Of a DNA stretch of 64,000 bases, positions 43,389 through 64,000 are shown piece by piece (the first letter of the stretch is position 1; every line of letters starts with the position of its first letter). The position numbers and the translations under genes are program-made. Under the pieces are notes generated by a model. That model saw nothing but the letters and a program-made list of their open reading frames with translations, made no database searches and was not told the DNA's origin. The stretch spans positions 695,040 through 759,039 of the forward strand of contig NZ_DS989905.1 in the NCBI RefSeq assembly GCF_000155595.1, in the 5' to 3' direction. This stretch comes from Synechococcus sp. PCC 7335. GTDB taxonomy: Bacteria; Cyanobacteriota; Cyanobacteriia; Phormidesmidales; Phormidesmidaceae.

Positions 43389-43513
43389 GTGGATACTGTC
43401 TAACGCTCAATGCATTTAGGGTAGCCGACAATTAGCACTATCACCTTTCTGTTATATTTATTGCCCAAAATAAAGGGTGGTGACTTCTACTGACCCGCAT
43501 TTGAATATCACCA

Positions 43514-44197: not shown

Positions 44198-44238
44198 CAA
44201 GATATCGCTGTGCCCATTGTTTGGCTTTCATTTTTGCA

Positions 44239-46989: not shown

Positions 46990-47076
46990 GCTTTGCCCGA
47001 TAGCAAAGCAGTCTGCTACTCCACAAGATTGTTCGAGTTAGAAAGTCGTTAGTCAATAAACCTGTTCAGGAGAAAC

Positions 47077-47985: not shown

Positions 47986-48011
47986 GTTGAGGTCATTTTA
48001 TTCACAAGATT

Positions 48012-49322
48012 ATGGATAGTTCTGAAGGCTCAGTAAATAAAGAGAAAGAACAAAATGCGCAGAGTCATCGCCGACTGATAGGGATATTGCTAGCAAGCGT
48101 CTTACTGAGCGGTAGCTTTGGCTATTGGGTCGTTCTCAATCGTAGAAATTCTGACTCACAGGCGCTTTCTCAAGCGCCACCGCCTCGCCCTGTCGAAGTT
48201 GCCAGACTCGCTGTCGGCGAGGGCGTTAGCTCTGTTGAACTGATTGGTCAAGCCGAAGCCAGAACAAACACAACACTGCGATCGCAAACATCGGGAGTTG
48301 TTCAGAAAATCCTGGTTCAATCAGGCGATAGAGTTGATGTTGGTACGACGGTTGCTGTTTTAGATGATGCCGACCAGCAGCTACTTCTCTCACAGGCGAT
48401 CGCCAATCTTGCTTCTGAGCAGAGTAATTTAGCAGAGCTAGAGACGGGAACTCGGCCAGAGATTATTGAGCAGAGAACAGCAGTTTTACAATCTGCTGAG
48501 GCCAGAGAGCAAGAAGCACGGGATAATCTTCAGCGCACTCAAGCATTAGTGGCACAAGGAGCACTCTCTGAGCGATCGCTGATTGAAGCTAGAACAGCAG
48601 TAGATGCTGCTCTTTCAGCAAAACTAGAATCGTCGGCAACCCTCGCCGAAGCAACCGCAGGCCCCACCGCTGAAGAACTCGCCGCTCAGCGAGCGATTGT
48701 GACGGCGAGGCGGGCCGCTGTCGAGCAAGCTGAGCTGAGCTTGAGTCGTACTCGCCTTCAGACAACAATCAGCGGCGTTGTAGAAGAGAGAGTCGCTAAC
48801 GTCGGAGATTATATGGAAGCAGGTGAGCCTGTGTTGTCGTTAGTTGATCGTGAAGATCTTGATGTGTTTTTAGAGATTCCTGAAGAACTTAGCGGTCAGA
48901 TAGCACCTGGATTAACCGTTATGCTGACAGCGCGAGCGCTGCCTGGCTGGCAAGGGCAAGCGACAATTGATGGGGTAATTCCAACTGCGAACGAAACCTC
49001 TCGTCGCCAGCGAGTACGCCTTCAAATAGAAAATACTCCGGCAGGTCTATTGCCGGGTATGTCTGTTCAAGGCACTTTAGAGAGAGCAAGCGATACGCCC
49101 AGCTTTGTTATTTCTCGTGATGCTCTGGTGCAGCAGGAGGGCGAGTGGATTGTGTTTACGGTTGCTGATGGACAAGCGAATGAGATAGCCGTGGAACTGG
49201 TTGCAGATACGGGCGAAGCGGTGGCGATCGCTTCAGAGCAATTACGCTCCGGACAATCTGTGGTGGTGCGAGGTGCGTCGGCACTACGAGCGGGCGCAGC
49301 AGTTCAGGTAATAGATCAATAG
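48012..49322 (+). CDS. RND efflux periplasmic adaptor (HlyD/AcrA family)
   Basis: 436 residues. One N-terminal membrane helix (LIGILLASVLLSGSFGYWVV, about 21-40). A lipoyl-like hairpin starts at RSQTSGVVQKILVQSGDRVDVG, then a long alpha-hairpin (about 120-225, ASEQSNLAELETGTR etc.) and the beta-barrel and membrane-proximal domains. It links the RND pump encoded 23 bp downstream to an outer-membrane channel, which is not in this window. Confidence 0.92.
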   Translation: MDSSEGSVNKEKEQNAQSHRRLIGILLASVLLSGSFGYWVVLNRRNSDSQALSQAPPPRPVEVARLAVGEGVSSVELIGQAEARTNTTLRSQTSGVVQKILVQSGDRVDVGTTVAVLDDADQQLLLSQAIANLASEQSNLAELETGTRPEIIEQRTAVLQSAEAREQEARDNLQRTQALVAQGALSERSLIEARTAVDAALSAKLESSATLAEATAGPTAEELAAQRAIVTARRAAVEQAELSLSRTRLQTTISGVVEERVANVGDYMEAGEPVLSLVDREDLDVFLEIPEELSGQIAPGLTVMLTARALPGWQGQATIDGVIPTANETSRRQRVRLQIENTPAGLLPGMSVQGTLERASDTPSFVISRDALVQQEGEWIVFTVADGQANEIAVELVADTGEAVAIASEQLRSGQSVVVRGASALRAGAAVQVIDQ

Positions 49323-49345
49323 GTTCACTAAGCACTGGCATTATC

Positions 49346-52300
49346 ATGAATTTGATTAGAATGGCTGTTCGCTGGCGGCATGGCACGATTGTTCTGTTTT
49401 GTTTGATTGCGCTCTTTGGCATATTGGCATTGTTCAGCCTGCCCTCGGAGCTGCGGCCTGGGGGCGATCGCCCGGAGGTAACTATCCAAACAAACTATCC
49501 AGGGGCAAGCCCAGCAGAAGTCGAAGATTTGATCACGCGCCCAATTGAAGAAGTCCTTGAAGGGGTTCAGGGTGTCCAAGAGATGACAAGTTCCAGCGGT
49601 AATGGGCAAAGCAGCATCAGCCTAGAATTTGCTTGGGATGTAGATATCAATCAGGCATTTGTAGATGTGCTCAGTAAGTTGCAACAGGCTGATGACTTGC
49701 CCGCTGAAGCAAGTGAATCAGAAGTGCAAATTGTCAGCGGTGACACCGATAGTCCTATGCTGCGAATTCACCTAGTGCCTGCTGAGGGAGCTACCGCTGA
49801 TCTGAACCACTACCGCGATTTGGCAGACGATGTGATTGGGCCGCGTCTGCGTCACATTGAAGGGATTGGCGATCTCTCTATAGAAGGCGGGCAAGCACGA
49901 GAAGTTGAAGTGATTGTCGATCCAAGGGCGCTAGCCGATCGAAATCTGGCTATTGATGATGTGATCAATACACTGCGCAGCAGCAATCGCGACATTCGAG
50001 GCGGACCCATGGTCGTCGGTCGGCGTGAATACAGAGTACGAACAGTCAGTCGTGCAAACGACGTCAAACAGCTAGAAGGGCTGATACTCCGTCGAGATAC
50101 GTCAGGCACGGTTTACTTAGGAGATGTCGCCGAGGCTAAAATTGGGCGAGCGACCCCTGAGATGGCTTTCTTACGCGATGGTGAACCCGCCATTACCATC
50201 GGCGCGGTTCGACAGATTGGAGGAAATGTTCCTGAGATTTCTAAAAGTATCCGAGCGGCGCTCGCAGAAATCGAAGAGAGATTTATACAACAGGGAGAAA
50301 ACGTTCGCTTTATCATCCCATACGACGAAAATGACTACATCAGTCAATCGATCTCTTTCGTCCAGAGTAGTTTGATTATTGGTGCTGTTTTAGCCGCTTT
50401 TGTACTGATTCTTTTTCTAGGTTCGCTGAGAACCGTTGCTGTCATTGCGATTACTATTCCGACGACGCTCATTTCGGTATTCATTGTCTTTGCGCTGTTG
50501 GGGCGATCGCTTAACGTTATTAGCCTGGCGGGACTCGCCTTCGCCTCTGGCATGATTGTAGATAATGCCATTGTTGTATTAGAGAATATATTTACTCATA
50601 TTCAAAAGGGGAAGACGACGGTTCAAGCGGCTGTTGACGCTACCCAGGAAGTTAGCGGAGCTATGCTGGCATCTACGCTGACAAATGTAGCCGTATTTAT
50701 GCCGATTGTACTTGTAGAGGGAGAAGCCGGACAGCTCTTTTTCGATTTAGGCATCGCCCTTTCTGCCTCCGTTCTCTTTTCTCTTTTCGCCGCACTGACG
50801 CTGGTGCCCATGCTCTCAGGGCTGTTTTTGACTCAAGCCGATGCCCAGCAAATGCTGGAAGGAAAGACTCACATCAAAGGCAACTCAATTGAACAGGCTA
50901 TCGTTCAAGTTTCTAGATATTTTACGCAAGTGCAGAGTCGCTTAGAACAAAGCTTGCTAGCAACCGTAAAATGGTCCTTAGGAAAAGGACATCGTAGTCG
51001 CAGGTTTGCAGTGTTGAGCGTTCCAATAGCGCTACTCTTTGTCGGCTATCAGCTACTACCTGCTATGGACTATCTGCCAGAAGGTAATCGCAATCTAATT
51101 ATATGGATCACCCAGCCATTTCCAGGAACCAGTATTCCTGAAGCGATAGAGCTATACGAAAAACCTCATGCGTTCGCTCAAGCGCAGCCAGAAGTGTTAG
51201 GAGATATTCTGGTTCATCGGCCTGCTGGTAGCATCATCGGTGTTTTTCTCAAGCTAGAAGAGACTAACGCTCGAACCTTAAGTAACCTGGAAGAGCGGAT
51301 GCGGGCGGCAAGCGGCGAGTTTCCAGGTTACCGATTTGTTGGTCTCAGGCGAGCCTCTATCTTCAGTAATCCTGGTAAAGAGTTTGAGGTTAAGCTCATT
51401 GGCCCAGACTTAGACTACCTCAATCAAATTCAAGGTCAGGTTGCTGAATCTTTGGAAGTGCTGGACGGTGTACAGAATGTTCGTCCCGACTTTCTAACAG
51501 GTGCGCCCGAACTACAGATTGTTCCCGATCGAGAACGGCTCGCTGAGGTTAGCCTCTCAGCGCTAGACTTGGGGACTGCTGTTGAAACAGCGCTGGGGGG
51601 CGTACGTGCCTCTGATTTTTTTGATGGCAGGCGAGACCTTGACGTAACCGTGAAACTGCAAGATGCTACGGCTGAAACGCCTGCTCAGCTTCGACAAATG
51701 CCGCTTTATGTAGGGGGTGGTGGCAGTAGCCAACAAGTTCAGCTATTAGATGTTGCCGACATGGTTGAAACGACCGGGCCAAATTCAATCGGCCATGTAG
51801 ATACAGAAAGGGCCATCACACTGACCGTATCGCTTTCTCAAGAAGCGCCTTTGGGCGGGTTGCTAGAGCAGACTGAAGAAACGATTTTACAGCCCTTGCG
51901 AGCAACTTTGCCATCAGGATACCGTGCTGAACTGGCTGGCTCTGCCAATGTGTTGTCAGAAACGCTGCGCCAACTGGGTGCTACTTTTCTACTGTCACTG
52001 CTGATCACTTATTTACTATTAGTCGCGCTCTATCGCTCCTTGATATACCCGCTGGTGATTATGGTGACGGTTCCCATTGGCCTAACGGGTGCGCTGCTGA
52101 GTTTGGCGATCGCAAATCTCATTCCGGGTGTCGTTGTGCCATTGGATATGATTGCTGGCTTGGGCTTTGTCATCTTGACAGGAATTGTGGTGAACAACGC
52201 AATTTTGCTAGTGGATCGAACACTTCAGCTTCAGCAGCAAGGGCAAGATTTAGATAGGTCGCTTTATGAGGCTGTGCGTGATCGCCTGCGACCTATTTTT

Positions 52301-52504
52301 ATGTCAGCCGGAACCAGTATATTAGGCATGTTGCCGCTAGCGACCTTTCCTGGCAAGGGCGCGGAACTTTACCAGGGGTTAGGCATCGTCTTGGTAGGGG
52401 GGTTAGCGTTCTCAACGCTACTGACTCCGACGATCGTTCCGGCAGTGATGCGATTACTCCGTGATTTTGATACGCTCCGGGATCACAGCTCTGACTCCAT
52501 ATAA
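49346..52504 (+). CDS. RND efflux pump, HAE family inner-membrane transporter
   Basis: 1052 residues, full length. An N-terminal helix (GTIVLFCLIALFGILALFSL), large periplasmic loops (from about 30 and 560) and helices 2-6 and 8-12. GLAFASGMIVDNAIVVLEN is the TM4 region with an Asp of the proton relay, and FVILTGIVVNNAILLVDR the matching region in the second half. This sequence is of the HAE1/HAE3-like drug or hydrophobe exporter class rather than the metal CusA class. It works as a trimer with the adaptor encoded upstream. Confidence 0.93.
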   Translation: MNLIRMAVRWRHGTIVLFCLIALFGILALFSLPSELRPGGDRPEVTIQTNYPGASPAEVEDLITRPIEEVLEGVQGVQEMTSSSGNGQSSISLEFAWDVDINQAFVDVLSKLQQADDLPAEASESEVQIVSGDTDSPMLRIHLVPAEGATADLNHYRDLADDVIGPRLRHIEGIGDLSIEGGQAREVEVIVDPRALADRNLAIDDVINTLRSSNRDIRGGPMVVGRREYRVRTVSRANDVKQLEGLILRRDTSGTVYLGDVAEAKIGRATPEMAFLRDGEPAITIGAVRQIGGNVPEISKSIRAALAEIEERFIQQGENVRFIIPYDENDYISQSISFVQSSLIIGAVLAAFVLILFLGSLRTVAVIAITIPTTLISVFIVFALLGRSLNVISLAGLAFASGMIVDNAIVVLENIFTHIQKGKTTVQAAVDATQEVSGAMLASTLTNVAVFMPIVLVEGEAGQLFFDLGIALSASVLFSLFAALTLVPMLSGLFLTQADAQQMLEGKTHIKGNSIEQAIVQVSRYFTQVQSRLEQSLLATVKWSLGKGHRSRRFAVLSVPIALLFVGYQLLPAMDYLPEGNRNLIIWITQPFPGTSIPEAIELYEKPHAFAQAQPEVLGDILVHRPAGSIIGVFLKLEETNARTLSNLEERMRAASGEFPGYRFVGLRRASIFSNPGKEFEVKLIGPDLDYLNQIQGQVAESLEVLDGVQNVRPDFLTGAPELQIVPDRERLAEVSLSALDLGTAVETALGGVRASDFFDGRRDLDVTVKLQDATAETPAQLRQMPLYVGGGGSSQQVQLLDVADMVETTGPNSIGHVDTERAITLTVSLSQEAPLGGLLEQTEETILQPLRATLPSGYRAELAGSANVLSETLRQLGATFLLSLLITYLLLVALYRSLIYPLVIMVTVPIGLTGALLSLAIANLIPGVVVPLDMIAGLGFVILTGIVVNNAILLVDRTLQLQQQGQDLDRSLYEAVRDRLRPIFMSAGTSILGMLPLATFPGKGAELYQGLGIVLVGGLAFSTLLTPTIVPAVMRLLRDFDTLRDHSSDSI

Positions 52505-53416
52505 CCTCCGTTCAGACACGTATATTGGGGCTCTTTGCATACCCCCCTGAAACGTCGCAATACAGATCGAGACGAGTGAGACTTACTGAATCGGCCTGTG
52601 CATCAGCTGCTGTAGAATCGCCTCCATATCAATGAATTCAGGTGCTTTGTAGAACTCATAGCGGCCATGAAAGATAAGGTGCTGTCAAGCGATGGGCGAA
52701 ACCAGCTTGAGCAGTTCCATCCCGTCACCATCCTGCTGACGCTCACTGTGAGTAAAGAGCTTAGAGAGGATCACCATGTTGTAGTAGACGATGCAATTGG
52801 TGAGCAGACGAGCGCACTCCCCCAGATTTGGTTCTTCTTAAAGAAGCGATCGCCCCGGTTCAAAGCAAAACCTTCCCTACCAGCGAACGCTGTGAGAAAC
52901 GTAGATGAAGCAACCCCACCGTCTAACTGCTTCATTAATGTCAATGGTCTCAGTGGTGTCAGTGGTGCCAATGGTGCTTCTGTTTCTGTGCTGAGATTGC
53001 CCTTCCGGTTGTTAGGGTTAGCTACTGATACCAGTCTTTTTTTACAGGGAGCGATCGCCCTCTCTCTTCGCTCGCTAGCGTCCCATCCTATGAGTTAATT
53101 GCCTTGAGTGATGAGGTAGACGAGATGGGACTGATAAGGAAGCTCAGAGGACTGAAGCAGAAAAGGCAGAGGAGCGATCGCTAGCGTCTGCTTTGCTGCT
53201 TTTCTAGTTTTCTGGATATTGTTAAAGCAGCGATCGCCATCTTCTATCGTTGTTAAAGCTGCCGCGCTGTTGGTGAGAGCTGAAGAGAATTATGGGAGAT
53301 AAAGAAGCGTAGAAAATTCCGGAAAATCTCTGATTACTCTCTAATTTATATTCAGACGGGTTCAAAGGAAATCTATCTATGTAAAAAAGGTTACGCAGAC
53401 CAGCAGAATATACCAT
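52505..53416. other. Gap holding a Tn3 transposase relic and decayed sequence
   Basis: Apart from the relic at 52590-52850 I see no gene. GCGATCGC octamers are frequent (e.g. 53050, 53175, 53230). Confidence 0.5.
52590..52850 (-). pseudogene. Tn3-family transposase, C-terminal relic
   Basis: Minus-strand translation gives CARLLTNCIVYYNMVILSKL, then ELLKLVSPIA-stop-QHLIFHGRYEF, the well-known C-terminus of Tn3 TnpA (LxNxIxYYNxxxLSxL... SPxxWxHINLxGxYxF). The in-frame TGA stands where the conserved Trp (TGG) is expected, at about 52684. The N-terminal 850 or so residues are missing. Confidence 0.8.
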
Positions 53417-54337
53417 CTACCTCGAAGGTCTCTGCCTGCCTGTATGCTCCTCAGCTTCAAAGTAAGGTACTTCTGAAGTCAGACAGGCTTGTATGTTAGA
53501 GCCTACTTGGCTGAAAGGCTGAACATCATTGACTCTTTCATACTCACCACCTCCATAGCTCAAAGTGGTGGCATCCACTTGGAAAATTCGTGTATCTCTA
53601 TGATCTGGGTCATCAAAACGGTAGATATTAGGTTGCTCAGAGTCTTCAGAGATAGAAGCTATCAGTTGACCATTACGACTAAACCCGACGTAGCAGAACT
53701 GACCATTGTGCTCAAACACGCTGACGTAAGCTCCTCTGTAATAAGCAGCAGGGATTAGATCTGGAGGCACATCATTGCTTTGCGAAGATGAATCAGCCGC
53801 AGTGCCGCTTTGCGAAGACGAAGTAGCCGGAGTGCCGGAGCTAGGAGGAGCAATACAGAACTGAGGATAATTGGAGCAAGTACTGCCATTACTTACTATA
53901 ATTCCGCTTGTCGTCTGACCACTTCGTACTTTTACAACAATTGGTCTACTATTCGCGCTTCCAAACATAGATGGTGCGTAATAGAAGAAGTAGCCATCAT
54001 CTTCTTCTAGATAAGAAAAGAAATAGTAATCACCCGGCGCAAGACTCATCCTAAAAGAAGCGATGGAACCATCCCATATAGCCGGTTGGTCTATACAGGT
54101 CATCAAGTGCAGGTTTGAGACGAGTTGAGCACACACCCGCATTGCGTCTATAACTTCAGACCCAAACACCCGCCTACCTTCGACGATACCTGGTTCAACT
54201 TGAGCAATGAGCTGTGGTGTGTAGCTTGTTGCATCAGCTGATTCTTCCCTTAATCCACTGGCGGTAGCCAGACTTTGGCTAGATATCAGGCCGCTAGCAG
54301 CTAGTAAAGCGCTAAGAACAGAGGTGTAGAATCGCAT
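53417..54337 (-). CDS. Exported protein of unknown function
   Basis: 306 residues with a signal peptide (1-27: FYTSVLSALLAASGLISSQSLA). A Ser-rich linker with two similar units (GTPATSSSQSGTAADSSSQS) separates an N-terminal part containing six cysteines in all (MRVCAQLV, MTCID, STCSNYPQFCIAP) from a C-terminal beta-rich domain (YVSVFEHNGQFCYVGFSRNGQ). No family recognised. It stands alone, and the gap 54338-55009 downstream is empty. Confidence 0.65.
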   Translation of the reverse strand: MRFYTSVLSALLAASGLISSQSLATASGLREESADATSYTPQLIAQVEPGIVEGRRVFGSEVIDAMRVCAQLVSNLHLMTCIDQPAIWDGSIASFRMSLAPGDYYFFSYLEEDDGYFFYYAPSMFGSANSRPIVVKVRSGQTTSGIIVSNGSTCSNYPQFCIAPPSSGTPATSSSQSGTAADSSSQSNDVPPDLIPAAYYRGAYVSVFEHNGQFCYVGFSRNGQLIASISEDSEQPNIYRFDDPDHRDTRIFQVDATTLSYGGGEYERVNDVQPFSQVGSNIQACLTSEVPYFEAEEHTGRQRPSR

Positions 54338-55009
54338 CAGCAGGTAAGGAGAGACAGCGTATCAAGGGCTAAGCGGTTTATTACCTTCTACATCCTGCCT
54401 TTAGATACTACGAATACCAATGAAGAATTTATAAAGAAGCAATTGCTATTTATTTGCTGACTGTGGCTATACAACAGTAGTTGTAATGGCTTGCAATTAC
54501 ATTCCTTTTTTCGCATATTCTGTTGGTGGCTATTTGTGAGCCTCACTAGTCAACCTATCAAAGCTTATGTACTTTACACTTTAGCCACTGCTATAAAGCG
54601 ATTTTGTCCAGTCGGAGATTCGGTGTGCCCTGGAAAGCCTTATAAAAGTAACACGAATAATTCAATTGGGGAGTGGGAGGGCTTTATCTAGGCTAGGTGC
54701 AGTTATGGTGAGTACTGAAAGGCTGGTGTGGTCAAAGTCAAAGGACATCAGCTCTCAGCCCGCTTCATCGATGAGGGGTATGAAAGGGTGCTCGCCTGCC
54801 CATAGACATGTATCTAGTTCTCAAACACCAACGCTATCATATCTATTTGGAGTCTTAAGAAAGCAGAATTCTGAGTATAGATAGTGGATGCTAGAGCAGT
54901 AGCGGTAGCGGTGCGATCGCCCAATAGTCATTTCCAGCTACGAGATCGCATTACCACTCTTTATTCGTTTCCTTTGCATCCTCCCCTAAAAAGTGACATG
55001 GAAAGTATT
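54338..55009. other. 672-bp gap with a possible relic of the 55.6-kb gene
   Basis: No intact gene. On the minus strand near 54755-54800 the codons give GEHPFIPLIDEAG-stop, similar to SFIPLIEDAA near the start of the protein at 55636-55872, so a decayed duplicate of that gene may lie here. Confidence 0.4.
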
Positions 55010-55225
55010 TCACTCACTGAGTTGATTGAGAGAAACCGAGATTTCGCCATAGAAGACTTGTTGATGGATAGACCAGTGCTGCTGTCCAAGCAGGAGAGCG
55101 AGCCAGAGTTCACCGGGCTGTAGGTGAGTAGCCAGTTGAAGCTGGTCAAAGGAAGCAGGTTGTGTGAGCCAAGAGAGCGCTGATTGAATGGTTTGAATCC
55201 AGGCGTTTTTCTGCATGAGCGACAT
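55010..55225 (-). CDS. Unknown small protein, or frame-shifted end of the next gene
   Basis: 71 residues (starts MSLMQKNAWIQTIQSALSWL). It overlaps the 3' end of the gene at 55146-55643 in another frame by about 80 bp. The content is well balanced, which suggests it is translated, either as a separate protein or as the true C-terminus of the upstream gene after a frameshift. No family recognised. Confidence 0.45.
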   Translation of the reverse strand: MSLMQKNAWIQTIQSALSWLTQPASFDQLQLATHLQPGELWLALLLGQQHWSIHQQVFYGEISVSLNQLSE

Positions 55226-55643
55226 TAAGCGCCTCTTCAGCGGACTGCACCGCCTGTGTAACGGCGTTCGCTATTGACGGTCCATCAGGTAAAGGAAGAG
55301 GCTTCTGCCTCTGTTGTCTCGGCAGGGGTATTGGCTGAGTAACCAACGCCTGAGTTGAGAAGTAGAAAGTATCTTTATCGCCAGTTAGTTCAGCCATCCA
55401 ACTTTCATCGAGGGTAGGTTCTTGGCCATACGCCTCAATCTCCTCGAAGACTTGTTCAGCGAAGCCACAGAATGCATCGGTATCGGCCTGAATGCGACTG
55501 GCAGCGATCGCAAAGAGTTCTTGGTAGAAGTTATGCGGGTTATTTTTGCGAGAGAGTGCTATGAGTTGAGCACGAAACCGCTGAGCCTTGGCTTGTGCCT
55601 GCTGCCATTGCTGAGCATTAAGTCTAGTTGTGGTCTCAGCCAT
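55146..55643 (-). CDS. Unknown plasmid-type protein
   Basis: 165 residues, helical and Gln/Ala-rich (LNAQQWQQAQAKAQRFRAQL). I do not recognise it. No membrane segment or signal. It overlaps the upstream gene by 8 bp (55636-55643) and the downstream frame at 55010, so three genes are read as a compact block, as is common on plasmid backbones. Confidence 0.6.
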   Translation of the reverse strand: MAETTTRLNAQQWQQAQAKAQRFRAQLIALSRKNNPHNFYQELFAIAASRIQADTDAFCGFAEQVFEEIEAYGQEPTLDESWMAELTGDKDTFYFSTQALVTQPIPLPRQQRQKPLPLPDGPSIANAVTQAVQSAEEALNVAHAEKRLDSNHSISALLAHTTCFL

Positions 55644-55872
55644 CTATTGTATTCTCCAGCAGACAGAAGGGACAGGCGGCAGCGGGTTGTCGGTCTTGAG
55701 TGATGGTAACGTCTTGGCCGAACTTAGCCTGAAGAATACCAATAACCGTCCGAATATGGCGTCTGAGCTGAGCTTGGGGAACTCCTTTTAGATGAATAGG
55801 AGTTCCCCTTTCTATCGTTTTTGCCGCATCCTCGATGAGTGGTATGAAAGAGCGAGCGCATGAATGAGCCAT
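55636..55872 (-). CDS. Unknown small protein with C-terminal CxxC
   Basis: 78 residues. It begins MAHSCARSFIPLIEDAAKTI; the C-terminus has CPFC, which could bind a metal or be redox active. No family known to me. First of the overlapping block; a fragment similar to its start lies near 54780. Confidence 0.55.
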   Translation of the reverse strand: MAHSCARSFIPLIEDAAKTIERGTPIHLKGVPQAQLRRHIRTVIGILQAKFGQDVTITQDRQPAAACPFCLLENTIDG

Positions 55873-55945
55873 CGGTACGGTTGCGATAGAAGGTGATTAG
55901 CACCGCTGGTGGCGATACGTAGTTAAGAGCGGGATATCAATGCTG

Positions 55946-56200
55946 TCAGTCCGCTGACTGCGCTGGCGAGATCGCTTTTTTAGCTTTGTTGAGTGAATGC
56001 TTGGCATAGTAAGAACGCCTAGAGTGACAGGTTCGCCCCTGCCAGCCAGGTTTAGCCTGTGCCACCACAACGGATTCATCAAACGTCTGATAGAGATTAC
56101 CATCTTCAAAAGACAAGAACAGAGTAGAGTCGTCCTGGTTAATCAGGCAACCATGACGCGCCCAGGCGCTGTCTGCGCCTCTATGAACGTCTCCGATCGA
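55946..56200 (-). CDS. Possible coding fragment without recognisable start
   Basis: A minus-strand frame of about 80 codons closed by a TGA at 55946-55948 reads like real protein (HGCLINQDDSTLFLSFEDGN, then YQTFDESVVVAQAKPGWQGR and SYYAKHSLNKAKKAISPA). An in-frame TGA lies just upstream and no ATG/GTG/TTG opens it, so it is either a relic or the end of a frameshifted gene. Product unknown. Confidence 0.35.
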   Translation of the reverse strand, partial: SIGDVHRGADSAWARHGCLINQDDSTLFLSFEDGNLYQTFDESVVVAQAKPGWQGRTCHSRRSYYAKHSLNKAKKAISPAQSAD

Positions 56201-56204
56201 TGGA

Positions 56205-56848
56205 GCCAGTCAAGATGGTGTGGGCTAGTCATGTTTTTCATTCCACGTAGCAAGAAGGCCCACTGTCAGGAGAGAAGCACTGAGCAAAGCACCGGCGGCG
56301 GCAAACGCACTAGCTAATAAAGAGACGGGTTTGCCAAAGGACATCCTTTTTTGGAGCTAATGGCAAAGCGAACGAAACGTAGTCTGAGTTTAGTCTGAGT
56401 GCGGCTATTCTGCTACTAGGAAAATGCTAACTAAGCGCTATGAGTAACCCTTTTTATATGGCAGGCATCAGATTGCATCGGCATAGACTGATCAGCCATA
56501 AGTTTAACACCCCATCACGCAAACGCGATTACACGTAATCGCATACACACTAATACTACTGGCGCTGCTTTCCCTCGTTTGATATCGTCGATGCGATAAT
56601 GTGTAATCACAATATCACACCACCTTAACCAGCCAAAACTAAGACATAGAGGACATTACAAGCATCTGCTCACCATACTCATGCCGACAAGTTTGTGTAA
56701 TCACAAAATCACGATATCAAAATATCACGCTGCAACAATTGGGTATTGAAGTATGCTGATAAGTGATTACACGTTAGCATGCAGTAGTGTAATCACGTTG
56801 GCACCCAATCATTTGTCAATACATATCATTGGAGAGGTCTATAAAGTC
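56205..56848. other. Upstream region of parA with partition-like sites
   Basis: No gene seen. It holds several of the GTGTAATCAC-type sites described at 56525-56796. Confidence 0.6.
56525..56796. repeat. Cluster of GTGTAATCAC sites, candidate partition centromere/operator
   Basis: GTGTAATCAC occurs at 56601-56610, 56695-56704 and 56787-56796; its reverse complement GTGATTACAC at 56763-56772; and the near-palindrome GCGATTACACGTAATCGC at 56525-56542. AATCAC or ATATCAC half-sites lie between. Further copies flank the RHH gene (57479, 57581) and 59226. This is the expected look of a site bound by the RHH protein encoded at 57630. Confidence 0.75.
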
Positions 56849-57484
56849 ATGCCAATTGCAGCCGTCATTTCGCAGAAAGGCGGACCAGGTAAGTCCACGG
56901 TATCGATGAACCTAGCCGTCGCCGCCCACCTGTCGGACAAAAGTGTCGCTGTCTTAGACACCGATCCGCAGTGTTCTATTAGTCAGTGGGGCGATATCCG
57001 AGAAGGGGAAGGCATCACCGAACCTATCGTTGTCGCTATACCGCCCAGCCGTCTTACCCAAGCGATCGCCACTACTCAAGAGGACAACACAGATTTAGTC
57101 ATCATAGATACAGCTCCTTTTAACTCAGAAGGGATTCTGACGGCGGCGCGACTCTCCGATATCTGCGTTGTGCCGTGTCGTCCATCAATCCTGGATCTTT
57201 CAGCGATCACAACCACACTTGACCTATGCTCAGCGGCAGGCGCAAAAGTAGGGTTGCTACTAAACGCAGTTAAGTCACGTCCGCAGCTGTACGAAGCGAC
57301 TAGCGTTCTGAAAGATCTAGCGGAAACCGACACGAACCGACAGATCTGCCCGATAGCACTATGGGATAGAACTGAGTACTCGAAAGCAGTCGTTGATGGT
57401 CTAGGTGTGCTTGAATACTCGCCGACTGGAAAGGCCGCGAAGGAGATCAAGCAACTGTACAAGTGGTTATGTGCTAACGTGTAA
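56849..57484 (+). CDS. parA: ParA-family partition ATPase
   Basis: 211 residues from the ATG at 56849, with GGAGAGG 12-18 bp upstream; a longer frame starts at 56753. The deviant Walker A is ISQKGGPGKSTVSMNLA with signature Lys; Walker A' VLDTDPQCS; Walker B LVIIDTAP. No N-terminal DNA-binding domain, so a type Ib ParA. It drives plasmid segregation with a centromere-binding partner, here most likely the RHH protein at 57630. The stop codon lies inside a GTGTAATCAC site (57479-57488). Confidence 0.93.
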   Translation: MPIAAVISQKGGPGKSTVSMNLAVAAHLSDKSVAVLDTDPQCSISQWGDIREGEGITEPIVVAIPPSRLTQAIATTQEDNTDLVIIDTAPFNSEGILTAARLSDICVVPCRPSILDLSAITTTLDLCSAAGAKVGLLLNAVKSRPQLYEATSVLKDLAETDTNRQICPIALWDRTEYSKAVVDGLGVLEYSPTGKAAKEIKQLYKWLCANV

Positions 57485-57598
57485 TCACAATGACACTTCA
57501 TCACGTAAGTACGTAATAAGGAAATCACAACCATAGGATTGCCGAAAGGTGAACACCCAAAGCTATCGTCTTGTGATAGCGTGATATCACAATTACAC
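57479..57598. repeat. GTGTAATCAC-type sites between parA and the RHH gene
   Basis: GTGTAATCAC at 57479-57488 and GTGATATCACAATTACAC at 57581-57598, plus the half-site AAATCACAA at 57521. They precede the RHH gene and would allow autoregulation. Confidence 0.7.
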
Positions 57599-57629
57599 GG
57601 TACAAATTTTTTATAGGAGAAGTGTTGCT

Positions 57630-57920
57630 ATGTCTGGTCTAAGAGATCGGCTTAAGCAAGTGGGAAATGGCAAAGCCGCGACTGGCAAAGTACAATCGGC
57701 TGCACCTGCTAAGCCTGACAATAAGAAGAGCCCGCACTATCGCCCGAGTCGATCAGGTAAGAAAGCCATTATCGGCTACTTCGACCCGGCAGTCTCAAAA
57801 CAAGTGAGACAGCTAGCGCTAGATGAAGATACGAGCGTAGAAGCACTCGTCGGGGAGGCGCTAGATCTATTGTTTGAGCAGCGTGGCCTACCTCAGATTG
57901 CTGGAAAGCAACCCGACTAG
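57630..57920 (+). CDS. Ribbon-helix-helix centromere-binding (ParB-like) protein
   Basis: 96 residues with TAGGAG upstream of the ATG. Residues 1-45 are basic and flexible (RDRLKQVGNGKAATGKVQSA). Residues about 46-88 are a ribbon-helix-helix: KKAIIGYFDPAVSKQVRQLALDEDTSVEALVGEALDLL read in parts as strand, helix, helix. It is placed right after parA, like ParG, ParR or Omega, and is the probable binder of the GTGTAATCAC sites. The TAG stop is where the IS630-like element inserted; the stop is preserved. Confidence 0.85.
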   Translation: MSGLRDRLKQVGNGKAATGKVQSAAPAKPDNKKSPHYRPSRSGKKAIIGYFDPAVSKQVRQLALDEDTSVEALVGEALDLLFEQRGLPQIAGKQPD

Positions 57921-59144
57921 TAGTCAGTCATGATTGAACTTTCGGGTAGAGGCGCTTGAGTTTGATGCGTGCATCATCAGTGGAGAATTGCCAATCAATC
58001 CCAGTTTGTTGATGGTTCCGTTGTGTTGCCCAAGCCTGAACTTCTTGTTCAATTTCGGTCACGTTATCAATGCGTCGGCTGAGACATTGTCGGGTCAACA
58101 CACTTAGTTCAGGCTCTGCCATATTGAGCCAACTGCCATGCTTAGGCGTGTAGACAATCTTCACCTTGTTTCGAATGCGGCGAGCTTCCTGTGGCGTAAA
58201 GGCTTGGTATAACGAGGTAACGGTATGGGTGTTGAGATTGTCACAAACTAATGTCAAGGTTTCAGCTGTGGCGTAGCGGGGGAGGTCAATCAGTTGCCGC
58301 AGTTGCTGTGCCCAATCAATGGCGGTTCGTCGGTCACTAACACGTACGTCTCGCCACCCGGCTAACGGTTCAACGAACATCCAGACCGTACAGGTTCCCT
58401 CGCGAATGTACTCGTGGTCAATCCGTTCAGGGGTATTAGGTTTGACAGGGTGTGGGAGGTGTTTCTCCTTCAGTAACTGTTTGGGTTGCTCGTCCATGCA
58501 AATGATTGGATGGGCCGGGTCATACGCCAACTGGTAAATATCCAAGACTTGCTCCATCTGGCAGACGAAAGCAGCATCCTGCTTGGGTGGAATGCACCAC
58601 ATGGTACGTCGCCAAGGCTTCAATTCATTTTTTTCAGCACTTGGCGAACCGTTTCATGGCTAACCGGCTCGACGATGTCTAAGACGACGGCTTGGTCTGC
58701 GAGCAGCCGTAGGCTCCAACGGGCATATCCTGGTGGCGGCTGAGAACAAGCTAAGGCCACCAAACGAGCTTCCTGCTCACCATCAAACTTGGGTGGGTTG
58801 GGCAGTTGGGATGGCGGCTTGCGAGACAACAAAGACAATGGCCCTTGAAAGACTGCCTGCTTACGCCAACTTTCGATGCTTCGGGTCGTCACCCCATAGG
58901 CTTCCGCAATCAGCTGGTCACACCAAGCCGGGCCAGCCTCGCTCTCGTCACATTTCAGTAGAGCTTGAGCGCGGGTCAGTTTCCACTTGGCCGCTTTCCC
59001 TTTCGAGACAAGTGCTTCTAGTTCCGCTCTCTCTTCAGGCTGCAATTTGACTCGATGCTGTTTTCTGCTCATGAACGTTCAACTCTCTCTAGAACAATCT
59101 TTTCGAGAGTTAGGGTGCCCGAAAATTTAGGGCTGACAGACTAC
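57920..59144 (-). mobile_element. IS630-family insertion sequence (TA target duplication)
   Basis: TA at 57918-57919 and 59145-59146 flank the element. The ends start GTAGTCAGTCA (left) and GTAGTCTGTCA (right, complement), with TTCGGG a little further in on both. It contains both transposase frames on the minus strand. Confidence 0.88.
57928..59072 (-). CDS. IS630-family transposase made by programmed -1 frameshift
   Basis: OrfA (59072-58620, 150 codons) is the helix-turn-helix domain (KLTRAQALLKCDES, GVTTRSIESWRKQA). OrfB (58623-57928) is the DDE domain: MDEQPKQLLKE (Asp), VCDNLNTHT (Asp) and PKHGSWLNMAEPELSVL (Glu). They join at seven consecutive A (plus-strand 58628-58634): VLKK then, after slipping back one base, NELKPWRRTMW, which is the expected IS630 sequence across the joint. 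The fusion gives a full DDE enzyme that moves the element into TA sites. Confidence 0.88.
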
Positions 59145-59225
59145 TAGTTTGTCCTTGCACCATATCCAACATGGTCGGCTTCTGGAAAAGCTATACCCTA
59201 AGTCAAACTAATCTTGTAGTGATAA

Positions 59226-59245
59226 CGCGATTACACGATTACACA
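59226..59245. repeat. Two GATTACAC sites after the IS630 element
   Basis: GCGATTACACGATTACAC, a tandem of the half-site, followed by ATAAAC. Same family as the sites at 56525-57598, placed 22 bp before the next gene. Confidence 0.6.
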
Positions 59246-59266
59246 TAAACCTCTGTAGTGAAAAAT

Positions 59267-59536
59267 ATGACTCTGAAAAAGTTTGAGAAGATAGCTACGG
59301 CGAGTCCGTTTGTTGAGTATTTCGGAACGTTCAACGGGCGTGGTAGTCACGAAGGGATTGCGGTCACAGCTGAGGGACCATATGAATACGCTCAGTTTTG
59401 CTTAGAGCTGATGTCTGAAGGGCTATGTAGGATAGCAGAAGAGAGACCCCTGATCGATCAATGGGGATTGAGTCAGATCTACTCGTGGCCGAAAAAATTA
59501 ATAGGAGGCGATCGCCAGTGTTCTACAGGCGGATAG
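59267..59536 (+). CDS. Unknown plasmid protein
   Basis: 89 residues from the ATG at 59267 (a GTG at 59258 is possible). Residues such as FVEYFGTFNGRGSHEGIAVT and YEYAQFCLELMSEGLCRIAEER look natural and globular. No family recognised. It follows the RHH gene once the IS630 element is removed, so it may be the third gene of the partition operon. Confidence 0.6.
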   Translation: MTLKKFEKIATASPFVEYFGTFNGRGSHEGIAVTAEGPYEYAQFCLELMSEGLCRIAEERPLIDQWGLSQIYSWPKKLIGGDRQCSTGG

Positions 59537-59783
59537 CCTTAACAGTATTCGTGTCGTTTTTGAATTAGTCAACGTAAGTAACACGAATATTTACCATCAG
59601 GCTTGGGACTAACCAACAGAGCGATCGCCTCCTATCTTTTCGGATTCCAGATAGAAATTAAAAAATATTAGGAGAGACCTGTTTAGTTTGAGCAGCATCA
59701 GTGTGTTCCGTATTGTCTGCCTAGCCGCTGTTATGAGAGCGGCTAGTGCCTTGAAGAGCTAGAAGTTAGTCGAGGATATAGAG

Positions 59784-60066
59784 ATGAATGCGGTAGAAGA
59801 ATGGCAGATTGTTATCGACGTATCGTTTGATAACATAAACAAAGGTACGGATCTATCGAAAGTTGTAGCATTTCGTTCCGCCTGCAAGTCGAGAGTTATC
59901 TATATGACCGAGCTGACGAAGGCGCAGGCTGAGCGGCTGTTCACTACACAATGCAGCAGTTCGAGAGCTACGCCCCTGGCACTGTTGGCAGTGGTACTTA
60001 TGCAGAAGTGGTAGGCCGTTTGGAAGATCTCTACCCTGGTTGGGTGGAAGAATGTGAAGAAGTTTA
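59784..60066 (+). pseudogene. Unknown small protein, frame lost by a one-base deletion
   Basis: The first frame (ATG at 59784) reads MNAVEEWQIVIDVSFDNINK to AQAERL at about 59938, then becomes unnatural (FTTQCSSSRATPL). The +1 frame from there reads AVHYTMQQFESYAPGTVGSG, then YAEVVGRLEDLYPGWVEECEEV-stop at 60064-60066, clearly protein-like. One missing base (CGGGCTG to CGGCTG near 59930) would explain it. Function unknown; may be a real mutation or a read error. Confidence 0.65.
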
Positions 60067-60311
60067 AAAGAGAGTGCAGTCACTACTGTGGAGACTTATG
60101 TCTACCACAGTACTTAATTTTCCTAGAGAGCGATCGCTCCATCGCCTGCGTTGGTTTACTGCCAGAGCGATCGCCCGAGAGTTGAGGCAGCGCTGAGGTG
60201 CTCTGAAGGATTGGGAGGAAGCCCATGGATTTCAAAGAGTAGACAACACTGCTGCCTTGTCGAAGATTGCGCCCCGTTCAATTAAGTCTTGTTTTTCTGC
60301 AAGGGCTAACC
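60067..60311. other. Gap with GCGATCGC octamers
   Basis: Two GCGATCGC octamers (about 60131 and 60164) and no gene. Confidence 0.5.
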
Positions 60312-60656
60312 CTAGAAACTAACTAAGGAAAGCACTAAAATTCCTAACGGGACGAGAAAAAGCAATCTATACCAAACTAACTCACCTAGAACGTTCGGCC
60401 AGATCTTCATAGCCAAAGTCATAAGCACTATACACACACAACAATCACGATAAGTGTGGTGGGGCGCAGGTAGGAACTGGCTGATGTGCTTAAGCATCAC
60501 GATAGCGGCATCAATTGGTAGTGCTAGCAGATACAGCGCATACCAGTTTCGTTGTTTAGTGCCTTCTATCCCTAAGAGAAGTCTTCCGAGCAGCGATCGC
60601 TTCAGACTTCTCTGTTGCGCTTGTTTCTCGTGACGCAAAGGGAAGTGATTTTCCAT
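60312..60656 (-). CDS. Unknown small membrane protein
   Basis: 114 residues. A basic head (RHEKQAQQRSLKRSLLGRLL), then three hydrophobic segments (about 38-58, 70-92 and 94-112). No family recognised. It has no neighbour in the same direction closer than HicB. Confidence 0.55.
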   Translation of the reverse strand: MENHFPLRHEKQAQQRSLKRSLLGRLLLGIEGTKQRNWYALYLLALPIDAAIVMLKHISQFLPAPHHTYRDCCVCIVLMTLAMKIWPNVLGELVWYRLLFLVPLGILVLSLVSF

Positions 60657-60785
60657 GAGTGCTTTCTACCAAGCAAATTCTAAAACCACTACACAATGAG
60701 TTTAGCTGATGGAGAGGTTAGCGAAAGTGATCGCTCTATGAATAGTCCCTAAGAAGGGTGATCGCCTTGTTCAATACTGGCTACG

Positions 60786-61112
60786 TTAGTCACCTGAAAG
60801 CTTTTTACTCGCCAGTCGGTTCAAGCTAACGCCTTGCTCCGCCGCTTGGATAGCCAGTTCCCGATGCTGTTCGGGTGGAATTCTGACCATAAACTTACCG
60901 CTGTAGAGTTTCTTCGATAGCGGTGTTGGCACAGCCTCATCGTGCGCTTCTAAATCGTTGATACAAGCCTGAACTAAGTTGATGATGCCAGAGAAAGCAG
61001 TTTGCTGATTCTCGTCGAGCCAGCTTAGCCCAGGGAACTCGGCACACAGACCGACAAATTCTTCATCTTCTTCCGACCAAAACACACGATAGGTGTAAAA
61101 CTGAGCGTCCAT
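60786..61112 (-). CDS. hicB: HicB-type antitoxin
   Basis: 108 residues. The first half (YTYRVFWSEEDEEFVGLCAEFPGLSWLDENQQTAF in parts) is the HicB partial RNase H fold; the C-terminal KFMVRIPPEQHRELAIQAAEQGVSLNRLASKKL is an RHH DNA-binding domain. It neutralises HicA and represses the operon. Its ATG overlaps the hicA stop by one base (TAATG), giving translational coupling. Confidence 0.85.
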   Translation of the reverse strand: MDAQFYTYRVFWSEEDEEFVGLCAEFPGLSWLDENQQTAFSGIINLVQACINDLEAHDEAVPTPLSKKLYSGKFMVRIPPEQHRELAIQAAEQGVSLNRLASKKLSGD

Positions 61113-61357
61113 TACATCGCCTCCATCTTTCTAATCGCTGCTAGTACCTGTTTGACTTGATAAGGCTTACCCTTTCCTTTTTTTGACTGGATATTGACAT
61201 AGGGTTCGCCCTGCCAGGGGGTGCGATAAACTCGATGACTGCCGCCCGATTGACGGGGCTTACCGAAGAAATGATCACAAACCTTAGACAAATCAGAGAA
61301 TTTTACCCCCTTAGGATTGTTCTCCATGTCTGCCAAAATCTTCTGAATACTAGCCAT
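61112..61357 (-). CDS. hicA: HicA-type mRNA interferase toxin
   Basis: 81 residues from the ATG at 61357 (an upstream frame starting at 61414 is less likely). The double-stranded RNA-binding-like fold has the catalytic His in RQSGGSHRVYRTPW, and the end VNIQSKKGKGKPYQVKQVLAAI fits HicA. It cleaves mRNA when free of HicB. It is upstream of hicB, the common order. Confidence 0.85.
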   Translation of the reverse strand: MASIQKILADMENNPKGVKFSDLSKVCDHFFGKPRQSGGSHRVYRTPWQGEPYVNIQSKKGKGKPYQVKQVLAAIRKMEAM

Positions 61358-61441
61358 TTCGCAGGTAATATCAATAATGATACTATAACGTAAATTATTG
61401 ATGTTGAGTCTCAAGGGTGGCCTGAGCTCTTCTTCCTATCA

Positions 61442-61774
61442 CTATTCACTTTCTCTTTGCAGCTGCTGAAGATAGGCTGTGCCGCCAAGCTGACTCATCT
61501 GAACCAGAATCCAGCTTTGTCGGTCTAGTACTTCCTGGGAAGGCGCTTCGATGCGGTAAAGTTCTGGCCCAGGTAGTACAGCAGCTAGTAGGGCAGCTTC
61601 TTGTGAGGTGAGGTCTCGGGCAGGGAGTTGAAAAAACTGTTGGCTAGCGGCTTCTACGCCGAAGGTACGCTCGCTAAACTGGGCAATGTTCAAGTACATT
61701 TCTAAGATCCGCTGCTTGTCCCACATCAACTCTATGAGCAGCGTTAGCCAAGCTTCTATCCCTCCACCTTCCAA
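61442..61774 (-). pseudogene. Peptidoglycan glycosyltransferase (GT51/MtgA) C-terminal remnant
   Basis: 110 residues match the second half of GT51: EAWLTLLIELMWDKQRILEMYLNIAQF, FGVEAASQQFFQLPARDLTSQEAALLAAVLPGPELY. The N-terminal half with the catalytic Glu (EDxxFxxHxG) is missing, and the frame begins with an ATG that has no good context. It would be unable to polymerise lipid II. Confidence 0.85.
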
Positions 61775-61923
61775 AGCGATCGCCCTCCAGTCTGTCCACT
61801 CATCGGCGTTGCCGTCTAAATTTCCAAGGCATGACAGGGTTTGGATTGGACCAGAAAGCGGATTGTGTCTGCTGAGCGCTCTGTTCTGCCTCTAAGTAGT
61901 CTGAGCGATCGCATATACTGATC

Positions 61924-61987
61924 AGATGACACTTGCTGAGCAAGACTGTCCTATAAATTGGCTCATCGAGTTTAACTTGACAATGCC
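61924..61987. repeat. 64-bp IS-end repeat, copy 2
   Basis: AGATGACACTTGCTGAGCAA through CTTGACAATGCC resembles 40626-40688. It stands alone here; its TTGACA and ATG lead into the small gene at 61983. Confidence 0.75.
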
Positions 61988-62218
61988 TAATACGCTAACG
62001 TTTGCACCCTTTGCGAACGCAACTGAGACCTTCCCATCTGCTTCTATCCAACAACGTCGCTTGGAAGTACTCGATACGGCAACTAAGTTCGTTGATGATA
62101 TCCAAAAGGTTCGCTTAGAGCAGCTGAACAACCAGACTAAGGCGGTTGACGATATTCAAAAGGTTTGGTTGGCGCACTCGAATAACCAAACCAGAGCGGT
62201 AGATAGTTGTCCCTGAAA
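61983..62218 (+). CDS. Small unknown protein with two 18-residue repeats, interrupted at its 3' end
   Basis: 77 residues. It has an 18-residue repeat, KFVDDIQKVRLEQLNNQT and KAVDDIQKVWLAHSNNQT, then RAVD. The IS5-like element enters within the last codons: removing it and one TAGATA copy gives RAVDNV and a TAA, so the pre-insertion protein would be only one residue shorter or longer than now. It is helical and likely coiled. Its start lies in the IS-end repeat. Function unknown. Confidence 0.5.
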
Positions 62219-63612
62219 AACCTAATCTAGGCAGCAGACGATCGCGAAAAACTGTCATCAGAAAGGCAACGGCAGAGTTTACGCAAATTGAAGCCATAAG
62301 CAGCCATCAAAGCGTTTATACAGTCACCCTGCTTACCTTTGAGGAAGTTACGCTTGAGAGCATGGTCATGTTTGAGATGACCAATGACCGGCTCAATCGC
62401 ACTGCGCCGCTTGGCCAAGCGTTTGAGCACCTCTTTGAACTTTCTGGCGCCTGCCACGAGCACCTGTAGGCCCTCTGGATGATGCTTGCTGCCTCGAAAG
62501 CCTCTGTCCACCGCTACTTGCTTGGGCAAAACGCCACTGAGCCGATGAGTTTGCGCTATCGCGTCGCTCAGTGTGGAGCCGTCATAGGGATTGCCGTGAA
62601 CCGCAGCCGTACCTACAATCCAGTTGCTCGCACTGGTCGTCACAAACACCACTTTGCAGCCAAACTCGTAGCGCTTATGAACCTTGACCTTTGCCAAACA
62701 TTCGACTTCCGGCGCATGCATACTGTAGAGCTTGTTAGAATCACTTCGTTTCTGTTGCTCAATCTGTTTTCCCGGTTCAACAACACAGCCATTTCTGCAT
62801 CTGGCTGCGGTAGCTTTCGTTCAATATCTCGAATCATACGACCCAAGTAAGTGCGTAGTTTGCGAGTATGCCTTCTGGCTCGTTTGAGTTGCCTTGCAAC
62901 TCGATAGCGACTCTGCTTAAAGAAAGCATACTTTCCAATCCTTACATAGCTTTGACGGAGCTTGACACCTCGCTTTCTCGCCGCCCGCACCAGCGTTATT
63001 CTGGCCTCGTTGTAAAGTCTCGCATCAGTCGGAAAAGCCACCGCTTTCTCTTGCACTGTTGTATCCACATTCACTCGCCCAATCTCTTTCGGTTTCATCA
63101 CAGCGCTACGCATCGCGGTCTGGATAATTTGACTGAGCAACTGTTCAAATCCATCGGTACCAATCTGCTTTCGCCACTTCACTAGACTCGCTGGATGGCA
63201 TGGCAGTTCATGTTGAAACACCTGCTCGCCGCAGAAATGCTGCCAGTATGGATTCTCGACCCACTTTGCCGCCACACTCTTATCACTTTCGTCGTACAAC
63301 GCCTTCTGATAGTGCAGCCCTACCAACAATCGAGTTGGCAACGCTGGTCGTCCGCCACTCGCTTTGACAACACATCCGAACTTCTTCTCGAACGCCTGCC
63401 AGGCTATCGTTTCGGCCAATTGGACAAGCGGATGACTTAGGTTCAACTGACTCGCTAGCGCTGATAGCGACGAGTCCCTATTTGAGGGCGATAATGATGG
63501 CTTCATTTTGCAAGCTTTTCGGAGCAAGAGCGACTTATCCGACAATTCTAGCTTGCCCTCTAAAGCTTGAAGCCTACTCTTGTCAAGCCTTTCATTAGTT
63601 TTCAGGGACGAC
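62206..63612 (-). mobile_element. IS5-family-like insertion sequence
   Basis: The ends are GTTGTCCCTGAAAA at 62206-62219 and (complement) GTCGTCCCTGAAAA at 63599-63612, one mismatch in 14. TAGATA flanks on both sides (62200-62205 and 63613-63618) and reads as the target duplication. Confidence 0.88.
62227..63545 (-). pseudogene. IS5-like transposase, split by a frameshift
   Basis: The first part (63545-about 62760) has FCGEQVFQHELPCHPASLVKWRKQIG and RVNVDTTVQEKAVAFPTDARLY (first Asp); the second part (about 62750-62227) has YEFGCKVVFV, VDRGFRGSKHH (second Asp) and RSAIEPVIGHLKHDHALKRN (Glu). In the first frame the sequence loses sense after AEMAVLLNRE; in the second, EPGKQIEQQKRSDSNKLYSM continues it, so one frame change near 62770 separates them. 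It may be a real inactivation or, less likely, a programmed shift. Confidence 0.85.
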
Positions 63613-63793
63613 TAGATAACGTCTAAGCCACTCGGCCAGCTAGTCTCGGTGCTCGTACTCTCATGCTGAGAATGTGTCGGACTGGATGAAGGCGCTGGCT
63701 GGTAAGCAGAGAGAAGCACCAAAGCGGTGGATGGACATTCAGCTATTTGTTCACTTTTTGTCCTGTACATAGATCTTCCCATTTATACAAAAG
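63613..63793. other. Short gap, nothing identified
   Basis: Stop-rich sequence after the IS5-like element. Confidence 0.4.
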
Positions 63794-64000
63794 TTATATA
63801 AACCTTTCTGGGTCTAAAAATGCGGCAGGACCTGGAAATATGCTTCTAATAGTAACTTGAATTGTATCTGGAATATCTTCAATCTCTTTAATCATTGATT
63901 TAAGGAGCCGTATAGAGCTAAACAATACGCAAACATTTACAATAGAAGTTGCATCCAAAGTTGGATATAGCCTTTTATCTGGTAAAACGCTTGATACATT
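63794..64000 (-). CDS. Unknown protein, C-terminal part (runs off window)
   Basis: The last 68 codons on the minus strand, ending with a TAA at 63794-63796. The reading includes RLYPTLDATSIVNVCVLFSS and LKSMIKEIEDIPDTIQ, then SIFPGPAAFLDPERFI. It is more A/T-rich than its neighbours. No family recognised; the start lies beyond the window. Confidence 0.6.
   Translation of the reverse strand, partial: NVSSVLPDKRLYPTLDATSIVNVCVLFSSIRLLKSMIKEIEDIPDTIQVTIRSIFPGPAAFLDPERFI

Follow-up and report, generated by a model that had tools for sequence, protein, structure and literature searches.

A ParA–RHH partition locus inside the terminal inverted repeats of a probably linear replicon of Synechococcus sp. 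PCC 7335

A parA gene followed by an RHH gene and surrounded by short palindromic boxes raises the question whether genes and boxes together form a partition system, and what kind of replicon carries them. We analyzed a stretch of 64,000 nucleotides from Synechococcus sp. PCC 7335, called the window in the following, which corresponds to C2:695040-759039; positions without a contig name refer to the window. Contig C2 is 774,507 bp long and is part of an assembly of 5.97 Mb. The original prediction regarded the boxes as a candidate parS of a ParA–RHH partition locus and considered this locus to define the replicon as a plasmid or a plasmid-derived region.

The parA gene (56849..57484, + strand) encodes a protein of 211 aa which matches Pfam AAA_31/CbiA. 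The protein has a deviant Walker A motif (QKGGPGKST from residue 9) and is without an N-terminal HTH extension. Its nearest solved structure is a chain of ParF (E 3.6e-16), which we take to be the partition protein of plasmid TP228. With the NCBIfam model NF041546 (ParA_partition) it scores 154.7 bits, under the curated cut-off of 180, and is thus not assigned to this family at that threshold. A longer frame starting at 56753 was considered for parA and dropped. Because both close relatives of the locus begin at the equivalent of 56849 with MPIVAVISQKGG and because GGAGAGG stands 5′ of this position, 56849 is most likely the true start. The RHH gene (57630..57920, + strand, 96 aa) lies 145 bp past the parA stop and runs in the same direction. 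Its product, the presumed centromere-binding protein, matches Pfam Antitox_RHH with 81.8 bits (cut-off 27.2; 4e-23); a structure model of low confidence (mean pLDDT 62.8) shows helices at residues 53-65 and 70-85 and no strand. A short HTH-less ParA with a deviant Walker A motif, a downstream RHH gene and iterated sites near the operon are the hallmarks of type Ib systems, and all of them are found here. Judged by its sequence, the locus belongs to the ParF/ParG (type Ib) kind of ParA–RHH partition loci and has an operator- or centromere-like array. In this respect the prediction is borne out by the gene families, by the site statistics and by the conservation in two relatives, and the array is a candidate parS or operator. 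A phage origin was also considered and dropped, as relatives of the ParA protein occur in 235 of 50,697 phage records and all of these are less than 60% identical.

A scan of the window for the box GTGTAATCAC gave exact matches at 56601 (+), 56695 (+), 56763..56772 (−), 56787..56796 (+) and 57479..57488 (+). In the first of these a TATCAC follows 8 bp after the AATCAC of the box (56601..56618, +), and the second is extended in 8-bp steps by AATCAC, AATCAC, an imperfect TATCAA and TATCAC (56695..56728, +). The last one overlaps the parA stop codon TAA (57482-57484), just as had been predicted. In addition there is a near-match, GTGTAATCGC, with one mismatch to GTGTAATCAC at 56525..56534 (−), and 5′ of the RHH gene a cluster of GTGATA, GTGATATCAC and ATTACAC (57573..57598, no strand assigned), in which GTGATATCAC at 57581 deviates from GTGTAATCAC by two mismatches.

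The stretch upstream of parA (56500-56848) contains four exact boxes compared to 0.0 expected, and seven WATCAC motifs where the C2 core predicts 0.35. The intergenic stretch that follows parA (57482-57629) has five WATCAC motifs compared to 0.15 expected; the box at 57479 straddles the boundary between parA and the intergenic stretch and is counted in neither. Inside parA (to 57481) and inside the RHH gene there is neither a WATCAC motif nor a box. For the 12 WATCAC motifs of both intergenic stretches, 2000 dinucleotide shuffles gave a mean of 1.07 and a maximum of 6. The pattern GTGN4CAC occurs six times in the 1.24 kb from 56400 to 57640, compared to 0.226 per kb across the whole of C2. The five exact boxes and their near-matches, predicted as one palindromic family around the two genes, are therefore far above chance. 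In the whole genome GTGTAATCAC is found 21 times, five times at the locus, five times at a second copy of it and 11 times scattered (nine on C1, one on C2 and one on C4). A chromosome with many such sites had been named as a finding that would speak against the prediction; this is not what is seen, since the nine exact boxes on C1 (4.72 Mb) are at least 14 kb apart.

The sites predicted between 56525 and 57598 are there, but this range is too narrow. A third cluster is found at 59219..59244 (−) and consists of three copies stepped by 8 bp, GTGTAATCGT, GTGTAATCGC and GCGTTATCAC, with one mismatch to GTGTAATCAC at 59227 (−) and two each at 59219 (−) and 59235 (−). It is separated from the RHH gene by an insertion element (57918..59146, −) with DDE_3 and HTH_32 matches, presumably of IS630 type, whose ends match (TAGTAGTC.GTCA, beginning with TA). 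The uninterrupted equivalent is present in Phormidesmis priestleyi Ana (L055).

This strain and P. priestleyi ULC027bin1 (L054) harbor the two close relatives of the locus, with RHH proteins 80% and 84% identical, respectively; a third RHH relative is 49% identical. In both P. priestleyi loci the two genes are retained, as are the clusters upstream of parA and in the intergenic stretch, while the DNA diverges. In L055 the third cluster follows directly after the RHH gene, which gives the three-cluster layout of the window, and the unit GTGATTACACGYTATCAC stands four times before parA. In L054 the RHH gene is followed, at a distance of about 0.12 kb, by one single box. Since parA of the window and of L055 are 85% identical in amino acids and 74% in nucleotides, with dS beyond estimation, the ParA protein is constrained.

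Relatives of the RHH protein occur in seven of the 63 genomes of the order, our genome included, and in 71 plasmid records. Seven of these plasmids were compared, and in none of them was GTGTAATCAC found near parA. Other short palindromes stand before parA, GTATACA three to eight times in two Nostoc plasmids, a Scytonema and a Gloeobacter plasmid, and GTTAACA four times in the Acetobacter and Acaryochloris plasmids; the Paracoccus plasmid, also one of the seven, has no repeated short palindrome near parA. Short palindromes flanking parA seem to be a rule of this family, with changing letters. At the DNA level, 72,556 plasmid records gave no match to the par locus or to the outer 20 kb of C2.

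ParG is a small RHH partner encoded downstream of ParF, and iterated sites precede parA in this system. The window locus resembles ParF–ParG of TP228 in the short HTH-less ParA, the downstream RHH partner and the iterated sites before parA. It differs in the boxes themselves, in the sites between and after the genes and in the presence of two identical copies on one replicon. The omega sites have the consensus 5′-WATCACW-3′. Like the window locus, the delta–omega system of pSM19035 combines an RHH protein with short boxes that are repeated close to the genes. In the window, however, the steps are 8 bp instead of 7 bp and the repeats are mixed with 10-bp near-palindromes; the label of an omega-type heptad parS was dropped since contiguous 7-bp repeats are not what is found. 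For pSM19035, full ParA activation is reported to require four or more contiguous heptads (PMC9499535).

Which replicon does the locus belong to? The ends of C2 form an inverted repeat which aligns over 41,475 bp with 99.91% identity, both arms starting from base 1. Within the window the right arm comprises 37997..64000 (no strand assigned; aligned to the left arm over 26,006 bp, 99.885% identity, 7 mismatches, 23 gap positions), and the part from 56500 to 59300 is letter-identical in the left arm. A 2.8-kb probe of the locus matches C2 twice with 100% identity in opposite orientation, and the par locus is present twice, about 22 kb from each C2 end. The prediction of a plasmid or plasmid-derived region is supported, as C2 is a separate contig and no tRNA was found in the 44 of 47 C2 and C4 stretches that were scanned. 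That the locus by itself defines the replicon does not hold, as it is one of two identical copies in a 41-kb repeat and C2 has further ParA loci. At 60786-61414 the repeat also includes a HicB-family gene and next to it a small gene that matches nothing in Pfam; the two perhaps form a HicAB-type pair.

Contig C4 (156 kb) has a terminal inverted repeat as well (19,476 bp, 99.96%, from base 1 of both ends). C3 carries an untrimmed direct end overlap of 3.6 kb, as in a circle, and the compared ends of C1, C5 and C6 show neither an inverted repeat nor a direct overlap. The two ends of C2 (C2:1-352 and 774156-774507) cut one and the same gene, whose relative in genome G057 continues into pentapeptide-like repeats. 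Hence either the contig stops short of the telomere, or the gene is truncated at this point. Perfect palindromes with an arm of at least 12 were absent from the outer 20 kb of C2 and of C4, the C2 contig stopping inside the gene. A search of our contigs for the replication protein CyRepA1 gave matches on C4, C5 and C6 and one weak match on C1, and none on C2.

In our genome the telomere resolvase domain ResT-TelK_cat (PF16684) is found on C2 and C4 only, with 113.7 and 114.2 bits against a cut-off of 27. The C2 gene is located at C2:280772-282706, where the domain is also scored with 109.9 bits, and the two proteins are 75% identical. With an E value of 1 or less, the C4 protein matches seven distinct PDB sequences, every one of them named as a protelomerase or telomere resolvase (4dwp and variants with a best value of 1.1e-11, 2v6e with 0.0032 and ResT 8vs5 with 0.67). 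In the order, 28 of the 63 genomes have ResT-TelK_cat matches. We compared the ends of 26 contigs, namely C1-C6 (C7-C11 being left out) and 20 contigs from eight other genomes with few contigs, nine with and 11 without a resolvase match. A terminal repeat was scored when the two ends shared an inverted match of 500 bp or more which reached near an end, a criterion judged after seeing the data. The outer 20 kb were compared in the other genomes and 20 to 79 kb in our own contigs, there with only matches above 400 bp listed; short interspersed inverted matches, such as those of 47-50 bp in G047:C1, were not counted. By this measure terminal inverted repeats are present in 7 of the 11 contigs with a resolvase gene and in 0 of the 15 without one (p 0.0005, one-sided). 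The seven are C2, C4, G003:C2, G044:C1, G044:C7, G045:C7 and G047:C3, and the resolvase-bearing contigs without a terminal repeat within 20 kb are G022:C2, G058:C4, G058:C6 and G045:C21. With its own telomere-resolvase gene and its terminal repeats, C2 can be inferred to have hairpin ends and is most likely a hairpin-ended linear replicon.

Two of the other contigs deserve a separate remark. G045:C7 begins at either end with a perfect palindrome, one of 36 and the other of 44 bp, and both contain the core CTAGCGTTTTTTGGAATTCCAAAAAACGCTAG; a resolvase domain is located 6.5 kb from one end and another 4.5 kb from the other. These palindromes are a candidate for a cyanobacterial hairpin telomere sequence, as the target of a resolvase would look. 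G044:C7 (5,458,963 bp) has a terminal inverted repeat of 6.55 kb with 99.99% identity, offset by 721 bp at one end and partly common to G044:C1, and its resolvase gene is at 158.8 kb. This contig is possibly a linear main chromosome, or else an assembly join.

Four public resolvase-bearing plasmids were kept outside the 26-contig comparison, and one of them has a terminal repeat in the stretches compared. This is pLBY of Leptolyngbya boryana, deposited as linear (44 kb) with the resolvase gene 0.8 kb from an end. Cy782202 of Gloeothece PCC 7822, also deposited as linear, has its resolvase gene 5.2 kb from one end and no inverted match between the outer 8 and 12 kb of its ends. In both cases the gene is annotated as 'protelomerase family protein'; such a gene is shared with C2, and for pLBY the terminal repeat as well. 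The remaining two, from PCC 7424 and NIES-3755, were deposited as circular molecules, and their outer 12 kb contain no inverted match reaching the ends. A further linear cyanobacterial replicon is the linear chromosome of Cyanothece 51142. In Nostoc sp. N6, the replicons pNPM8-10 are described as linear with hairpin ends and terminal inverted repeats of 0.16-2.73 kb, and only pNPM8 is given a presumptive parA (PMC5987646). Compared with these values, the repeats of C2 and C4 are longer (41.4 and 19.5 kb) and contain par loci. The Streptomyces plasmid SCP1 is linear with 75-kb terminal repeats and dual ParABS systems with distinct sites (PMC13245405). It is like the probably linear C2 in the length of its repeats and in the presence of two partition systems that differ in their sites, but uses HTH ParB CTPases, not RHH proteins. 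The Gloeobacter morelensis plasmid pGMOR1 (NZ_CP063846) is deposited as linear, with a ParA and RHH relative 2.3 kb from the right end and a 122-bp terminal inverted repeat at 81%. Unlike C2 it has one par copy, outside the repeat, and it is not among the 25 records matching the C4 resolvase.

Apart from the terminal copies, C2 carries a central, sequence-distinct ParA gene (C2:365,894-366,673), whose partner of 172 aa matches no Pfam family. Many TTGTATAAT-type repeats are found in the stretch before this ParA gene. Two more ParA-like frames are located on C2 at 628.5 and 686.9 kb. The cumulative GC skew of C2 rises steadily from about 360 kb (−1058) to the right end (+2311). Its minimum is shallow, with the lowest value (−1175) at 160 kb and not at 360 kb, and the rise near the central ParA locus is only a weak pointer to an origin. 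At E 1e-5, C4 has a single ParA match. This gene is located within the terminal repeat at a distance of 11 kb from either end; its 92-aa partner is without Pfam match, and AAAACCAGA direct repeats stand before the gene. The terminal and the central ParA locus of C2 and the terminal one of C4 thus each have a site type of their own, as would be expected if the partition systems are compatible. Elsewhere on C4 (C4:76519-76664) about a dozen copies of the 10-bp direct repeat GTGATTATTG are found about 400 bp before a weak ParA-family gene (77068-77943).

The central ParA stands beside two genes, X and Y, which also precede the window locus. Gene X of the window (55146..55643, −), an open reading frame with zero Pfam matches, is a shortened relative of C2:364001-364645. 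Gene Y (55639..56209, outer ends approximate, −) is a relative of C2:364629-365159 and is broken into separate frames (C2:750678-750935 and 750988-751248). The central copies have zero Pfam or NCBIfam matches at E 0.01. The pair recurs at window 55146-56209, C2:364001-365159, C4:12674-13603, C2:601926-603225 and C2:682846-684055, and adjoins a ParA locus in three of these five places; it is broken in the C2 terminal copy and whole at the center. Before gene Y the window contains the repeat TAGTCTGAGTTTAGTCTGA (56380-56400), which is also present near the central locus (C2:367625-367664) and, at about position 3165, before parA in L055.

We consider it likely that the cassette works like ParF–ParG or delta–omega and does so inside the terminal repeat of a probably hairpin-ended linear C2. 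The RHH protein would bind the GTGTAATCAC boxes and the 8-bp-stepped WATCAC half-sites in the three clusters. The promoter-proximal sites would repress the operon, and the whole array would serve as centromere, with 56699-56728 (three WATCAC and one imperfect unit in 8-bp steps) as candidate active core. Nucleoid-bound ParA-ATP would pull and then release the RHH-coated arrays. Two such partition complexes would form, about 22 kb from the two ends of C2, and the ParA locus near the center with its other, TTGTATAAT-type sites would be a third.

It is very unlikely that the sites are merely the autoregulatory operator of an antitoxin-like RHH repressor and not a centromere. Pfam indeed names the domain 'Antitoxin-like' and the sites are in promoter-like positions, but the RHH gene is paired with a ParF-like ATPase and has no recognised toxin as a neighbor, and this combination of ParA and RHH is seen again on plasmids with the annotation 'ParA family partition ATPase'. 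Moreover, sites are also found within and after the operon, in the relatives too, which is more than repression needs. There is a real if minor chance that the terminal locus is a passenger from a smaller plasmid copied to both ends and that the central ParA alone partitions C2. The broken X and Y genes at the terminal copy, compared with whole ones at the center, and the insertion element which splits off the third site cluster would fit this, as would SCP1, for which only one of the two ParABS systems is reported to be crucial in the laboratory (PMC13245405). Against this, neither parA nor the RHH gene is disrupted, both are conserved in their protein sequences, and two of the site clusters have remained whole.

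The linear form itself might also be questioned. C2 could be a circular megaplasmid with a large inverted duplication, as in chloroplasts, which the assembler cut in or beside the repeat, so that the par locus would be present twice on a circle. The two arms break off at one and the same base, much as they would at a graph node, and do so within a gene whose relative extends further; moreover, two of the resolvase-bearing plasmids were deposited as circular. In the same assembly, however, C3 shows the direct end overlap expected of a circle, whereas the overlaps of C2 and C4 are inverted; the resolvase genes are on exactly the two repeat-ended contigs, and this association holds over the 26 contigs. 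The outermost 1.3 kb of C2 match nothing else in the search of the genome, unlike what would be expected for an overlap with a missing spacer contig, and among the contig ends no overlap above 400 bp was found. A circular C2 is for us decidedly unlikely.

Returning to the preferred reading of a hairpin-ended linear C2, a ParA gene lies in the terminal repeat of both repeat-ended contigs of our genome and of none of the five others. Among these five, a ParA less than 20 kb from an end is seen in G044:C1 alone, and there it is located outside the repeat. Two cases can be chance. That some cyanobacterial hairpin-ended linear replicons carry their centromere in long terminal repeats and are moved by both ends is in our view unlikely; if it were true, the unrelated sites of C2 and C4 (GTGTAATCAC and AAAACCAGA) would speak for selection that favors end-linked centromeres, and not for descent.

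Linear cyanobacterial replicons and ParA–RHH systems are already known. In the literature searched on linear replicons, telomere resolvases and par loci we did not meet a par locus duplicated inside terminal repeats. Such an arrangement poses a puzzle: how would one linear molecule with two or three centromeres be segregated without its ends being pulled apart? The partition locus itself is of a known kind in an unusual place, and the interest comes mainly from the probable linear replicons found via the locus. According to the N6 report, linear replicons are rarely found in cyanobacteria (PMC5987646). The resolvase matches in 28 of 63 genomes of the order together with the terminal repeats on 7 of 11 resolvase-bearing contigs suggest that such replicons are commoner than has appeared in print.
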